Of a stretch of DNA of 27,527 nucleotides, positions 18,804-26,288 are shown in pieces. The position numbers were made by a program, and so were the translations under genes. The notes below the pieces were generated by a model. The model was not told the origin of the DNA, made no database searches, and was given only the letters and a program-made list of their open reading frames with translations. Position 1 is the first letter of the stretch. Each line of letters starts with the position of its first letter. The stretch spans positions 1 through 27,527 of IMG/VR virus record IMGVR_UViG_3300046002_001911; one strand, 5' to 3'. The stretch comes from a virus.

Positions 18804-18811
18804 TATATTTG
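18804..18811 (+). promoter_or_regulatory. Candidate -7 box TATATTTG, 3 nt before the lipoprotein start
   Basis: TATATTTG then tgc and ATG (18815). It fits TAnnTTTG; no TTG is visible at the usual -33 place. The transcript would be leaderless or nearly so. Confidence 0.45.
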
Positions 18812-18814
18812 TGC

Positions 18815-19009
18815 ATGAAATATTTACCAATCTTACTATTATTATCCTGTAATACCAGCGTTCACCAATACAACCTAGATAGTCAACGTAAAAGTATGCT
18901 GAAATATGACAAGCAAAGCATACGTAAACAGCAGAATATAAGAGATGGGAGAGGTAAAACACTATTTAGAATTAATATAAATAAGAGTAAAAAGATTATA
19001 ATTAGATAA
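18815..19009 (+). CDS. Small lipoprotein
   Basis: A 64-residue protein with a lipoprotein signal: MKYLPILLLLSCNTSVHQ, where a short basic start, a Leu-rich stretch and LLSC form a lipobox with Cys12. The mature protein is short and basic (RKSMLKYDKQSIRKQQNIRD) and would be anchored in the envelope. I use ATG 18815 rather than the upstream TTG (18809), since it gives the cleaner signal. The gene stands alone within the noncoding region, with its own -7 box and terminator. Phage and prophage lipoproteins may block receptors against other phages or alter the host; this is inference. Confidence 0.65.
   Translation: MKYLPILLLLSCNTSVHQYNLDSQRKSMLKYDKQSIRKQQNIRDGRGKTLFRININKSKKIIIR
18957..18984 (+). 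repeat. 28-nt dispersed repeat, copy 2
   Basis: Matches 3369-3396 at 27 of 28 positions. Here it lies within the 3' coding part of the lipoprotein gene, so it is read as codons, whereas copy 1 is intergenic. A weaker relative is at 15160-15180 (19 of 21 positions). Confidence 0.65.
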
Positions 19010-19038
19010 TCCTGCTATTAATTTAGTAGGATTTTTTG
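19008..19038 (+). terminator. Intrinsic terminator of the lipoprotein gene
   Basis: AATCCT (19008-19013) pairs with AGGATT (19028-19033); a G-T and then CTA/TAG continue the stem inside. A T run follows. The left arm overlaps the stop codon. Confidence 0.8.
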
Positions 19039-19055
19039 TTTTATGCCACATAAAT

Positions 19056-19390
19056 AGTAATCTTTTTTATTTTTTAGTAATCTTTTTGAAAGTAAAAGAT
19101 TCTTAGTGGTAGCAAGGGTTTACAAAAAAGCAGTAATCTTTCTAAAAAAAAAGATTCTTAGTGGTACCTAAGCGTAGAGGGCAATAGTAATCTTTTTTGG
19201 CTAAAATCGCTACCTTTTTATATATAATACCCAAAAAACCCGAAAAAAAAAAGTTGAAAAACACGAAAAAACATTACTATTCGTCTGTATCCTTAGGTAC
19301 CACTAAGAATCTTTTTAAAAAAAAAGATTACTATGAAACACAAAAAGATTTTTTCACCCTCTTAGCCTTAGGTACCACTAAGAATCTTTT
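19056..19390 (+). repeat. Mixed direct and inverted repeat array, candidate replication origin
   Basis: Two repeated words are interleaved. Word A, AGTAATCTTT, is at 19056, 19076, 19132 and 19186, and inverted at 19321-19332, with a one-mismatch inverted copy near 19266-19280. Word B is a 24-bp sequence containing GATTCTTAGTGGTACC. It is at 19149-19172, and its exact reverse complement is at 19292-19315 and 19367-19390. A shorter copy is at 19094-19111. Long A and T runs lie between. The array precedes the SF3 helicase gene, where phage origins often lie. No convincing gene is present. Confidence 0.75.
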
Positions 19391-19420
19391 TTTTTATAGG
19401 TAAAATAAATGATAAAATTA

Positions 19421-19450
19421 TTGTCAATTAAAATATTATACTTACTTTTG
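19421..19450 (+). promoter_or_regulatory. Promoter of the SF3 helicase gene, near consensus
   Basis: TTG (19421-19423), 19 bp, TACTTTTG (19443-19450), which fits TTG-N19-TAnnTTTG. The expected start is near 19455, giving a leader of about 95 nt before ATG 19551. Confidence 0.75.
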
Positions 19451-19454
19451 TAAA

Positions 19455-19533
19455 AGTTGAGCCATGCAGGGCTATAAAGATATTTAACGAGTTGGTGGAG
19501 GAACTGCATTTCTGAAGCCGCTCGTTTTTTTTT
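19455..19533 (+). ncRNA. Structured leader RNA, probable attenuator or small RNA
   Basis: Hairpin 1: AGCC (19460-19463)/GGCT (19470-19473) with the 6-nt loop ATGCAG. Hairpin 2 is the terminator at 19486, whose top is AGGAA/TTTCT with the loop CTGCA. The loop of hairpin 1 is the exact complement of CTGCAT (19504-19509), so the two can kiss. AACTGCAT (19502-19509) is also the complement of ATGCAGTT (19543-19550), which touches the start codon. A short frame, MQGYKDI, opens at 19464. The RNA could be a leader attenuator or a free small RNA of about 79 nt. Confidence 0.6.
19486..19533 (+). terminator. Intrinsic terminator within the SF3 helicase leader
   Basis: AACGAG (19486-19491) pairs with CTCGTT (19521-19526), then GG/CC (19494-19495 and 19518-19519) and AGGAA/TTTCT inside, around the loop CTGCA. 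Nine Ts end at 19533. It lies only 18 bp before the ATG and downstream of the promoter, so it would stop the gene's own transcript unless overcome. Confidence 0.75.
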
Positions 19534-19550
19534 AATTAATAAATGCAGTT

Positions 19551-20948
19551 ATGATTAACAATTTAATTAATCCAGAAGATAAATTCTGGAGTTCAAACCA
19601 AGATGGTAAAGTATCATTGAATAACTTTAAATTTAAAAGGTTTTTAGAGATGCATGATTTCTTTAAAAACAAACCTAACGAAAACAGCTCTTTTAATATA
19701 ATCAAAAAGAATGGTATTTTTTTAGAGATTCAAGATGAAACAGATATTAAAGATTTTGTTTTAACTTATGTATTAAAGAATAATTTAGGTGAAGATGTAT
19801 ATAATCTTCTTACTACTCGTTTAACAATATTTAAACGTGACTATTTAAGCATGATAGAAAGTAAAAAAATAGATATATTAAAAGATACTAAAGATATAGC
19901 TTATTTATTTTATAAAAATGGAGTAGTTGAAGTTAAAAAAGATAGTCAGGAGCTAAAAGATTATGCTAACTACGGTTTATCAATATGGAAAGACCAAATA
20001 ATAAATAGAAACTATATTGAAAGCGACCACCACGATAGCGAGTTTAGAACTTTTATATGGAAGATTTCAGGCGAGAATGTAGATAGATATAATACGTTTC
20101 AAAGTGTAATAGGTTACTTAGTACATTCTTATAAATCAAATGGTAATAATAAAGCTATTATTTTAAATGATGAAATGATAAGTGATGAGCCAAATGGAAG
20201 GAGCGGCAAGGGTTTATTTTGGAACGCTTTAAAGCACATGAAAAAAGTACAGTCTATTGATGGTAAACAATTTTCTTTTGCGGGTGATTTTCCATATCAA
20301 TCTGTAAAAACTGACTGCCAAGTATTAGTATTTGATGACGTTAAAAGGAATTTCTTATTTGAAAATTTATTTAGTGTAATTACAGAAGGTATAGAAATTA
20401 CCTACAAAGGTAAAGATACTATTAAATTACCTGTAGAAGATTCACCAAAGATTCTAATTACTACAAATTACACGATTAAAGGAACGGGAGGTTCTCACGA
20501 TGCTAGGAAGTTTGAAGTTGAATTAAGTACATTCTTTAATTCAGGACATACTCCGATTGATTTCTTTAAGCATTATCTTTTTAACGATTGGGACAAATTA
20601 GAATGGGCAAGGTTTGACTGCTACATTATTGAATGTATAAAAAAGTATCTTAATTTTGGATTAATGAATTATGAAAGCATATCTTTACCGTTCAAAAAAT
20701 TTGAATTAGAAATAACCAAAGGACTATTTGAAATAATACAAACTTTGAAAAGTAATGAGTGGATTGTCTTTGATGACTTTTATAATTTATATATTCAGAA
20801 CGTAGTTAAGAAGTGGGATGCGCAAACAAAAAATACAGTTACTAGGAACTTAAAAAAATATATTGCATTCTATAAATATAAATATGAAGAGATTGTAAAT
20901 AATGGTGTTAAAAAATTTAAAATAATTAGAGATGCAGCAACTAACTAA
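19551..20948 (+). CDS. SF3-type replicative helicase (D5/primase-helicase-like)
   Basis: A 465-residue protein with superfamily 3 helicase motifs. Walker A lies in EPNGRSGKG (Gly216 to Lys220), Walker B in VLVFDDVKRN (Asp262, Asp263), and a motif C/sensor in ILITTNYTIKG (Asn306), followed by the conserved GGSHDARKFEVELS with its Arg. Such helicases melt origins and drive phage or plasmid replication. Residues 1-190 show no recognisable primase motifs; a separate primase or a very diverged domain must be assumed. The C-terminal 130 residues are helical and may be a winged-helix DNA-binding part. It is the first gene after the repeat array, under a leader with a terminator, and overlaps the next gene by 17 bp. 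Confidence 0.85.
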   Translation: MINNLINPEDKFWSSNQDGKVSLNNFKFKRFLEMHDFFKNKPNENSSFNIIKKNGIFLEIQDETDIKDFVLTYVLKNNLGEDVYNLLTTRLTIFKRDYLSMIESKKIDILKDTKDIAYLFYKNGVVEVKKDSQELKDYANYGLSIWKDQIINRNYIESDHHDSEFRTFIWKISGENVDRYNTFQSVIGYLVHSYKSNGNNKAIILNDEMISDEPNGRSGKGLFWNALKHMKKVQSIDGKQFSFAGDFPYQSVKTDCQVLVFDDVKRNFLFENLFSVITEGIEITYKGKDTIKLPVEDSPKILITTNYTIKGTGGSHDARKFEVELSTFFNSGHTPIDFFKHYLFNDWDKLEWARFDCYIIECIKKYLNFGLMNYESISLPFKKFELEITKGLFEIIQTLKSNEWIVFDDFYNLYIQNVVKKWDAQTKNTVTRNLKKYIAFYKYKYEEIVNNGVKKFKIIRDAATN

Positions 20949-21294: not shown

Positions 21295-22682
21295 TAGTTT
21301 TACGGGAGTATCAAAAAGAATATATTGATAAAATAAAGAAAAGTTTTAAAAACGGTAATAAAAAACTTATACTTTGTTCTGCTACGGGGTCAGGTAAAAC
21401 GATTATGTTTAGCTATATGACTTTGGAAGCTATTAATAAGGGTAAAAACGTATTAATATTAACTGATAGAAAGGAATTATTTACACAATCGACAAGCTCC
21501 CTTCATAAAATGGGGTTAGTTCCTTCCGAAATTAGACCGAGTAAAGAAGTAGATGAAAACAAATTGCACGTTGGAATGATACAAACCGTTTCAAGACGTT
21601 TAGACAAGCTAAAAGATTACTTTGATACCTTAGATTTGATAATAATAGATGAAGCTCACAAAACTATCTTTGATAAAGTATTCAATTATATAAACAAAAA
21701 CACTTTTGTAATAGGTGCAACTGCTACACCTCATCGAGAAAAGAATCAAGATAGCTTAAAATTATATTATTCTGATATTATTCAAGTTATTGATACTCCT
21801 GACTTAATAAAATTAGGGAACTTATCTACACCTGAAAGCTATGGAGTGCCGATTAATTTAAAAGGGGTAAAAACTAGAGGAGGTGATTACGATGAGAAAG
21901 CAATGGCTGATAAGTTTAGTGAAATTAAATTGTTTCATGGGGTTTTTGATAATTACCAACGATTAACGCCCAATAAGAAAGCTTTAGTATTTGCGCCAAA
22001 TGTAGAAAGTAGTAAGGAACTTGTAGAAAGTTTTAGCGACAAAGGTTTACCCTGTAAGCACGTTGACTGTTATATGAGTGATGAGGTTAGAAAATATACT
22101 TTAAAATGGTTTGCAGAAACACCCAATGCTATACTATCAAATTACGGCATATTAACAACGGGTTTTGATTGTCCTAGTATTGAAGTAGTGATACTTTACA
22201 GAGCAACTAAAAGTTTACCTTTATTCCTGCAAATGGTTGGACGTGGTTCTAGGGTTACTGAAAGTAAAAACACATTTACAATATTAGATTTTGGGAACAA
22301 TATTAAAACACATAACTATTGGGAAGCTGCCAGAGTATGGAGCTTAGATAAAAAAGAATATAAAGAAGATTCTGCACCGCTTAAAGAGTGTCCTTCATGT
22401 TACTTTATAAATTCCAATACAGCGAGTGAGTGCGCAAATTGTGGTTTTATATTTAAGAAAACAGAACAGGAACTAGAAGCAGAAATAATAGTTGAACTAC
22501 AGAAAATGAACAAATGGCAAAGTATAGATTTTTTAGTAGATGCAAGTTTTAAAGATTTAGAATTATATGCAACTGCAAAAGGGTATAGTAAGAACTGGGT
22601 TAAACATCAATTAAAAACAGAGAAAGATTTTTATGACTATGGAGAATACAAAGGATATAGAAAAGGGTGGGACAAGTACTGA
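21291..22682 (+). CDS. SF2 DEAD/DEAH-type helicase with a C-terminal zinc ribbon
   Basis: A 463-residue helicase. Visible motifs: LREYQKEYI near the start, motif I ATGSGKT (31-37), motif II DEAH (120-123), motif III GATATP (142-147) and motif VI QMVGRGSR (314-321). After the second RecA-like domain comes Cys367-x2-Cys370-x10-Cys381-x2-Cys384 (CPSC and CANC), a zinc ribbon. The layout is like RecG/UvsW/SSL2-related phage helicases that remodel branched or origin DNA. Its last 50 bp overlap the following nuclease gene. Likely acts in replication fork processing with the Erf and nuclease proteins. Confidence 0.9.
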   Translation: MIVLREYQKEYIDKIKKSFKNGNKKLILCSATGSGKTIMFSYMTLEAINKGKNVLILTDRKELFTQSTSSLHKMGLVPSEIRPSKEVDENKLHVGMIQTVSRRLDKLKDYFDTLDLIIIDEAHKTIFDKVFNYINKNTFVIGATATPHREKNQDSLKLYYSDIIQVIDTPDLIKLGNLSTPESYGVPINLKGVKTRGGDYDEKAMADKFSEIKLFHGVFDNYQRLTPNKKALVFAPNVESSKELVESFSDKGLPCKHVDCYMSDEVRKYTLKWFAETPNAILSNYGILTTGFDCPSIEVVILYRATKSLPLFLQMVGRGSRVTESKNTFTILDFGNNIKTHNYWEAARVWSLDKKEYKEDSAPLKECPSCYFINSNTASECANCGFIFKKTEQELEAEIIVELQKMNKWQSIDFLVDASFKDLELYATAKGYSKNWVKHQLKTEKDFYDYGEYKGYRKGWDKY

Positions 22683-25650: not shown

Positions 25651-25755
25651 ATGGATATATTTGAAACTAAAATATTACTTTTACATTTTAACTATCATTG
25701 TAGAACGAAAAAAAACGTATCTTTGAACATGGTATTTACATATTATTTGAATTGA
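25651..25755 (+). CDS. Possible short upstream ORF coupled to the sigma-like gene
   Basis: A 34-codon frame (begins MDIFETKILLLHF, ends NMVFTYYLN) whose TGA stop shares its A with the ATG of the sigma-like gene (25753-25757). The frame also contains an in-frame ATG at 25729, 3 nt after a TATCTTTG box. It could be a real small protein, a coupling leader, or chance. Nothing else supports it as a protein. Confidence 0.3.
   Translation: MDIFETKILLLHFNYHCRTKKNVSLNMVFTYYLN
25698..25725 (+). promoter_or_regulatory. Promoter of the sigma-factor-like gene
   Basis: TTG (25698-25700), 17 bp, TATCTTTG (25718-25725), a good Bacteroidetes match. An ATG lies 3 nt later and opens an 8-codon frame ending at the start of the sigma-like gene. 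Confidence 0.65.
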
Positions 25756-26288
25756 TGAGTAATAAATTAATGATAGAGCTATCAAAATACCACTCCGAGT
25801 GGTGTAAGATTGTGCGGTCATTTGGTGTAAGCTCCGATACTTGCGAAGACGTAGTGCAGGATATGTATTTAAGACTTAACAAATTATCATCCTATGAAAA
25901 ACTGTTTAAAAACGGGGTGCTATCAAAGTCTTATGTTTGGATTACTTTAAGAAATTTACAGTTCCAACAATTTAAACAGGACAACTTAACGATTTCACTA
26001 AGCAACTATGATATACAAATAGATGAAAATTGTACATTAGATGAGGTTAAAGCGCGTTCTAATTTTAATGTAAAGATTAACAGAGAAGTAGGCAAGTGGA
26101 ATATGTACGACCAACTACTATTTTCTATCTACATGAACGATTCAATTTCAATGCGTGATATTTCAAAAGGTAGCGGAATAACTTTGAGAAGCATACAAAG
26201 GACGTTAGAGAATTGCTATCGTAGGTTAAGGCAAAATGTAGGTGAAGACTATCAAGATTTAATAAACAAAGATTACGAACTAATATAA
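25755..26288 (+). CDS. Sigma-70 family (ECF-like) sigma factor
   Basis: A 177-residue protein with two sigma regions. The N-terminal part has a region 2-like helix (SDTCEDVVQDMYLRL, about 27-41), and the C-terminal part a region 4-like helix-turn-helix (MRDISKGSGITLRSIQRTLE, about 133-152). The middle linker is long and poorly conserved. Such proteins are common near terminase genes of Bacteroidetes phages and could direct host RNA polymerase to late promoters. I use ATG 25755; a TTG at 25752 is also in frame but unlikely, because the ATG overlaps the preceding stop (TGATG). Confidence 0.75.
   Translation: MSNKLMIELSKYHSEWCKIVRSFGVSSDTCEDVVQDMYLRLNKLSSYEKLFKNGVLSKSYVWITLRNLQFQQFKQDNLTISLSNYDIQIDENCTLDEVKARSNFNVKINREVGKWNMYDQLLFSIYMNDSISMRDISKGSGITLRSIQRTLENCYRRLRQNVGEDYQDLINKDYELI

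Follow-up and report, generated by a model that had tools for sequence, protein, structure and literature searches.

A repeat array upstream of an SF3/D5-like helicase gene is a probable iteron-type replication origin with respelled words in related phages

We analysed a 27.5-kb virus contig (the window, meaning this whole stretch of DNA), in which a repeat array upstream of a gene for an SF3/D5-like helicase is probably the phage replication origin, read by the product of that next gene as the initiator. An earlier note on the window had proposed an origin or initiator-binding site at this place. Comparison with related sequences favours this reading because the position and geometry of the array are conserved, its words change in concert within each genome, and the word tracks the C-terminal domain of the helicase.

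Structure of the repeat array

The positions given earlier for three exact copies of a 24-mer, two of them inverted and the other direct, a fourth copy that is shorter, and at least five copies of a second word (AGTAATCTTT, word X) were all verified, and the small CTTAG/CTAAG dyad described for the 24-mer (AAAAGATTCTTAGTGGTACCTAAG) is present. The true extent of the array in the window is approximately 19053–19396, with the following elements.

19056–19065, + strand: word X, exact AGTAATCTTT, left arm copy 1
19076–19085, + strand: word X, exact, left arm copy 2, 20 bp past copy 1 (a spacing kept in relatives)
19094–19117, + strand: shorter fourth copy of the 24-mer, matching over its first 18 bases (half of word X plus a second element, CTTAGTGGTA), then GCAAGG
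19132–19141, + strand: word X, exact, left arm copy 3
19149–19172, + strand: 24-mer, exact, direct
19186–19195, + strand: word X, exact; left member of a converging pair, flanking the AT-rich core
19196–19268, no strand assigned: core between the converging words, 73% AT, with TATATATAATA and A-tracts; proposed melting site
19269–19278, − strand: inverted word X carrying a single mismatch; right-hand partner in the converging pair, the two starts lying 83 bp apart
19292–19315, − strand: 24-mer, exact, inverted copy 1
19323–19332, − strand: word X, exact, inverted
19367–19390, − strand: 24-mer, exact, inverted copy 2

Words thus stand in both orientations around an AT-rich core, which is not the most AT-rich stretch of the window, on the upstream side of the adjoining helicase gene. 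Because the 24-mer and AGTAATCTTT have one half in common (AATCTTT/AAAGATT), several copies alternatively fit a reading as AGTAATCTTT...AAAGATTCTTAGTGGTA half-dyads. The 400-bp array stretch gave an 8-mer pair score of 160, compared with 23 for the best unrelated stretch in the window; 1000 dinucleotide shuffles averaged 9 and never exceeded 44. Cores of the 24-mer were absent elsewhere in the 27.5-kb window with two mismatches allowed, and AGTAATCTTT had one exact match outside the array, inverted, at 21612. A terminator-like hairpin (19008–19033) lies upstream of the array and promoter-like sequence follows it, placing the array between transcription units. The GC-skew check proposed earlier showed no switch at the array, where transcription bias could mask one.

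Two other classes of repeat were rejected. A CRISPR array is ruled out by the irregular spacing, the two orientations and the short words. Stoperator-like repressor operators would be expected at many dispersed positions in the genome; apart from the AGTAATCTTT at 21612, no word lies outside the array, and this confinement also holds in most relatives.

Arrays in related phages

Relatives were gathered by scans with the helicase, the 120-aa protein encoded beside it and alignments of both, which gave approximately 40 contigs of the window's helicase clade and more distant primase-fused cousins. No direct DNA similarity to named phages was found, a search of host and prophage sequences (peptide patterns, one genome per species) gave no relative, and the named relatives in phages and plasmids are distant only. 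An array in the position corresponding to that of the window, with the words respelled, occurs in approximately 30 related phage contigs; the earlier note had suggested looking for the same words before the helicase in related phages. In 30 of the 34 loci with at least 300 bp of upstream sequence, the array before the helicase beat all 200 shuffles, a slightly lenient test in that the observed score is the best of several positions. Among the four other loci, L074 has a weak array visible by eye, the contig ends close by in L077 and L092, and L065 has its array approximately 4 kb further upstream, beyond other genes. We therefore found no relative that has the helicase and lacks comparable repeats where the upstream sequence suffices, the finding that the earlier note had named as contrary to its proposal. 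Several genes intervene between array and helicase in L075, and the array of L009 is placed downstream of the leader RNA described below. Loss of the primase domain was rejected as the cause of the array: several primase-fused cousins also have word arrays just before the gene.

All word copies inside each genome were altered in concert. The window and L001 use AGTAATCTTT; L002–L004 use AGTGAACTTT or AGTGGACTTT (the latter in L004 and also in L087); L057, L058, L061, L062 and L064 have CGTAAAAA(A)GTT-type words; and L068, L082, L088 and L090 combine GTAGAAAGTT with CGTATTAAGTT. Further words are AGTGCAAAG (L093), TAGGAAAAAG (L096 and L101), AAATAAGTT (L098) and AAGTCAACAT (L099). The second element (CTTAGTGGTACC in the window, CTGAGTGATACC in L083, CTGAGTGTTTAC in L087 and L096, CTTAGTCGTAGC in L079) varies less than the word, and in many genomes its left-hand copies are direct and its right-hand copies inverted.

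The layout was retained across these spellings. Of 14 genomes with distinct words, 11 have converging words at a distance of 70–84 bp (random mean 3.2, p = 0.001) and nine have a first direct pair at 19–22 bp (random mean 1.7, p = 0.001), the retained spacings being 71–84 and 20–21 bp, respectively; both p-values are descriptive, the words having been picked by eye from reading the arrays. The AT content between the converging words ranges from 72 to 89% across genomes.

Fold and domains of the helicase

The gene that follows the array and the domain of interest within it are located as follows.

19551–20948, + strand: SF3/D5-like helicase, 465 aa, without the primase domain of the wider family; putative initiator
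20727–20945, + strand: C-terminal domain of the helicase, residues 393–465; predicted winged helix, proposed word reader

The structural model of the helicase (pLDDT 78, pTM 0.70, with poor central loops) has the SF3/D5 fold. Among solved structures it is most similar to the primase-helicase of SaPI5 (331 residues at 5.1 Å with VIA Z 16.1; Foldseek E 6e-10), and other D5-like helicases rank closely; poxvirus D5/E5 and ASFV PrimPol are also among the best matches, and the papillomavirus E1 hexamer gave a VIA Z of 8.3. A profile search of PDB sequences with the helicase returned nothing at E ≤ 1. The earlier wording of an undescribed initiator was too strong, since this fold is that of known self-loading initiators (SaPI5 Rep, D5).

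The C-terminal domain was predicted as a winged helix both in context and alone (two models; pLDDT approximately 82–90, 82 alone). Many of its PDB neighbours are winged-helix proteins, all of them weak matches (no Foldseek E below 0.001, Z ≤ 8), and the predicted recognition helix would be KNTVTRNLKKYIAF (residues 427–440).

Primase-like domains occur only in the more distant fused relatives, which carry BT4734-like_N and PriCT_1; the 465-aa window protein begins directly with the helicase portion. The other window ORFs tested, from a contig that may be incomplete, yielded no recognisable primase either. Given these two absences, the host probably carries out the priming.

The word follows the helicase C-terminal domain

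Where genomes are mosaic, word type is linked solely to the C-terminal approximately 70–130 residues of the helicase; the remainder of that protein, the 120-residue neighbour and the virion genes show no such link. Among 12 relatives, identity to the window's C-terminal domain was 61–98% where the words were of the AGTnnnCTTT kind and 42–44% where they were of the CGTAAAAAGTT or GTAGAAAGTT kind, without overlap between the two groups, whereas the N-domain and core identities did overlap between word groups.

Two natural recombinants separate the domains. The N-domain of L067 is 97% identical to that of L058, which has CGTAAAAA words, yet its C-terminal domain is of the window type and its words (AGTCATCTTT, AAAGATATT) are near the window's. 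The core of L057 is 95% identical to that of L004 (AGTGGACTTT words), yet its C-terminal domain is of the other type and its words are CGTAAAAAAGT. At the level of whole records, most virion genes of L057 are 93–100% identical to the window's, yet the C-terminal domain and words differ; conversely, L001 has the helicase and words in common with the window, but not the virion genes.

Partial Mantel analyses over 31 genomes located the association towards the C-terminal end, with a higher signal for residues 331–392, just ahead of the C-terminal domain (7-mers, r = 0.34, p = 0.0005; 6-mers, 0.26, p = 0.0085), than for residues 393–460 (7-mers, r = 0.13, p = 0.02; 6-mers, 0.18, p = 0.002). No positive independent association was obtained for the N-domain or the SF3 core. 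The link between domain and word is loose at fine scale, because L062 (CGTAAAAAGTT) and L088 (GTAGAAAGTT) have nearly the same C-terminal domain and words that differ in their middle letters.

These results support the C-terminal domain (residues 393–465) as the proposed reader of the word. Both the helicase and its 120-residue neighbour had been named earlier as candidates; the data favour the former, and the latter was rejected, being 96% identical to its counterpart in a genome with completely different words. The SF2 helicase and the VRR nuclease were rejected as well, as neither tracks the words, and the same holds for the sigma-like protein and the virion genes. Other genes common to the window and L057 or L058 are 90–100% identical while the words differ.

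Promoter and leader RNA between array and helicase

Two further features occupy the interval between the array and the helicase gene.

19421–19450, + strand: promoter-like sequence (TTG, 19-bp spacer, TACTTTTG), read directly from the sequence
19455–19548, + strand: leader RNA with interleaved stems A-B-A'-B', from a stem search and covariation in relatives

The promoter-like sequence is presumably of the Bacteroidota type. A stricter Bacteroidota promoter pattern of our own, which is too specific, gave no match, and a sigma-70 promoter scan gave no site.

The leader RNA has its stems at 19464 (A, ATGCAG), 19487 (B, ACGAG), 19504 (A', CTGCAT) and 19521 (B', CTCGT), followed by a T-run. It was present in 24 of 25 loci tested, L089 being the exception (coordinates include L002 3346–3440, L057 4329–4420, L087 4876–4970 and L033 4938–5038). 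In 18 of the 24, the leader beat all 100 shuffles; the other six, the window included, were beaten by one or two, and the signal is weaker in the window itself than among its relatives. In an alignment of 12 sequences, 12 of 20 pairs had changed on both sides, 87% of cells paired compared with 72% in shuffles, and the covariation score was 0.45 compared with 0.19. Minimum-energy folding, a method that cannot show pseudoknots, was unremarkable. The covariation suggests an A-B-A'-B' pseudoknot with a terminator-like second stem. Furthermore, a third copy of A just before a start codon in several genomes means that A' could switch partners; the window has a second ATGCAG at 19543. Rfam searches gave no match for the window stretch at E ≤ 1 or for nine relatives at the gathering threshold, and the analysis thus brought to light a covarying leader RNA without a match in any Rfam family searched.

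Gene neighbourhood

Mosaicism is strong in these phages. In a comparison with the L057 and L001 records (L115–L116, L119–L120), the virion genes of the window are 93–100% identical to those of L057 and largely unrelated to those of L001, and most genes from the helicase rightwards are 85–100% identical between the window and L001. In many relatives a short lipoprotein-like ORF (MKYLPILLLLSC...; window 18809–19009) lies ahead of the array, with 92% identity in L001, L057 and L058 although the words differ. A tRNA gene lies directly upstream of the array in L004 (5401–5461), with a similar stretch at approximately 5400 in L003.

Several relatives encode small, stand-alone helix-turn-helix proteins resembling DnaA domain IV (PF08299; L087 4051–4458, L083 427–819, L084 at G011:C1:23630-23791), and L093 (618–1013) and L096 (3928–4323) have weaker candidates. 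These genes sit near and upstream of the array (immediately so in L083, L084 and L087), a location in keeping with an origin, and the window has none. Between array and helicase, L058 (4312–4599) and L061 (4312–4602) have an ORF of 95–96 aa that looks like a separate copy of the helicase N-terminal domain (in L058, 27% identity at E 4e-4). A sigma-70-ECF-like protein, possibly a phage sigma factor, is encoded at 25752–26288 of the window (TIGR02937, E 2.5e-7, below the curated cut-off). Other strongly repetitive DNA unrelated to the origin words comprises approximately 30 copies of CAGTTCGCTT in L101 (from 6201), GGTTATGGT-type repeats in L061 (from 501) and pentapeptide-repeat-like DNA in L095 (from 51).

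Discussion

The array is best explained as working like SaPI Rep/ori or phage P4 alpha, by analogy with which it would be an iteron-type origin read by the C-terminal domain of the helicase. Copies of the C-terminal winged helix would bind the words on both arms flanking the AT-rich core, and the converging orientation of the words would set two hexamers head to head over it. The core would then melt, and the helicase would load itself and unwind bidirectionally. The more conserved second element (TTCT[TG]AGTGnTACC-like) may position this assembly or bind another protein.

An alternative that we consider unlikely is that the array is mainly an operator, through which the helicase or another protein controls the promoter at its right edge, with replication starting elsewhere. 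Promoter-like sequence and leader RNA do lie directly to the right of the array, and phage repressors also co-evolve with their sites. However, the array stretches back approximately 370 bp upstream from the promoter, and its AT-rich core and converging words are conserved; it is separated from the helicase by several genes in L075, lies downstream of the leader RNA in L009, and no repressor gene tracks the word, the other genes common with L057 and L058 being highly conserved across different words. The array may have an operator role alongside its role as an origin.

There is also a small chance that the array is an origin whose changing word is read by a protein other than the helicase, from host or phage, which recruits the helicase. 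The stand-alone DnaA-domain-IV-like protein encoded just upstream of the array in some relatives speaks for this, as does the second, more conserved element, which may bind such a factor. Yet this protein is missing from the window and most relatives, the word is tracked neither by the 120-aa neighbour nor by the SF2 helicase, the VRR nuclease, the sigma-like protein or the virion genes, and a host factor would not account for words that follow the helicase C-terminal domain. A site for partition, packaging or site-specific recombination is very improbable: such sites can also comprise direct and inverted repeats, but the ORFs tested included no recognisable partition protein or integrase, and the array travels with the helicase and not with the virion genes.

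Taking the array as an origin read by the helicase, a wider and decidedly tentative proposal, on balance doubtful, is that the array, the pseudoknot-terminator leader RNA and the primase-less helicase together make up a replication cassette that Bacteroidota phages can exchange as one unit. The geometry of the origin would stay fixed while its word evolved fast, so that every phage had a replication specificity of its own, and the leader RNA would help to control replication, either as a primer or by attenuating the initiator.

How initiator and origin change specificity jointly is an old question with few natural examples. The kind of origin is itself known; what is new is a probable member with unusually clear natural specificity variants. 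The family supplies about a dozen word variants on one geometry, a probable natural initiator–origin series of altered specificity in which the recombinants L067 and L057 point to the reading domain. Arrays of this sort could also help to find the origins of Bacteroidota phages that otherwise have no annotation. A literature search on iteron origins of Flavobacterium phages found no paper.

Among known systems, SaPI Rep (SaPI5 Rep, PriRep1) and SCCmec Cch2 are AAA+ helicases of the same fold as the window helicase. Their C-terminal DNA-binding domain recognises an iteron origin of short repeats beside the gene, the isolated Cch2 domain binds the origin, and two hexamers have been proposed there (PMC7581432); the window's C-terminal domain is proposed to act likewise. 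The SaPI origin lies downstream of the gene, whereas the window array lies upstream, and the window helicase, with no sequence-level match among PDB chains, is not a SaPI Rep by sequence. Unlike SaPI Rep, the window has no recognised primase domain or gene, and it has an extra conserved second element and a pseudoknot leader RNA; its hosts are probably Bacteroidota, unlike those of the SaPI and SCCmec systems. In P4 alpha, a C-terminal winged helix of the initiator helicase binds the origin repeats (PMC4234260). P4 alpha has its own TOPRIM primase domain, which the window helicase does not, and the words and layout of the P4 origin are unlike those of the window array. The RepA_N-type origin of the Vibrio phage satellite PLE resembles the array in having repeats with inverted sub-repeats around a poly-A tract, which are bound by its initiator (PMC7145576). 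The PLE initiator belongs to another protein family and is not a predicted helicase or primase, unlike the window helicase. Papillomavirus E1 and SV40 large T share the SF3 helicase core with the window protein, and their origins have binding sites around a melting core. E1 and large T recognise their origins through a domain on the N-terminal side of the helicase (PMC7581432), whereas in the window helicase it is the C-terminal domain that is indicated as the reader.
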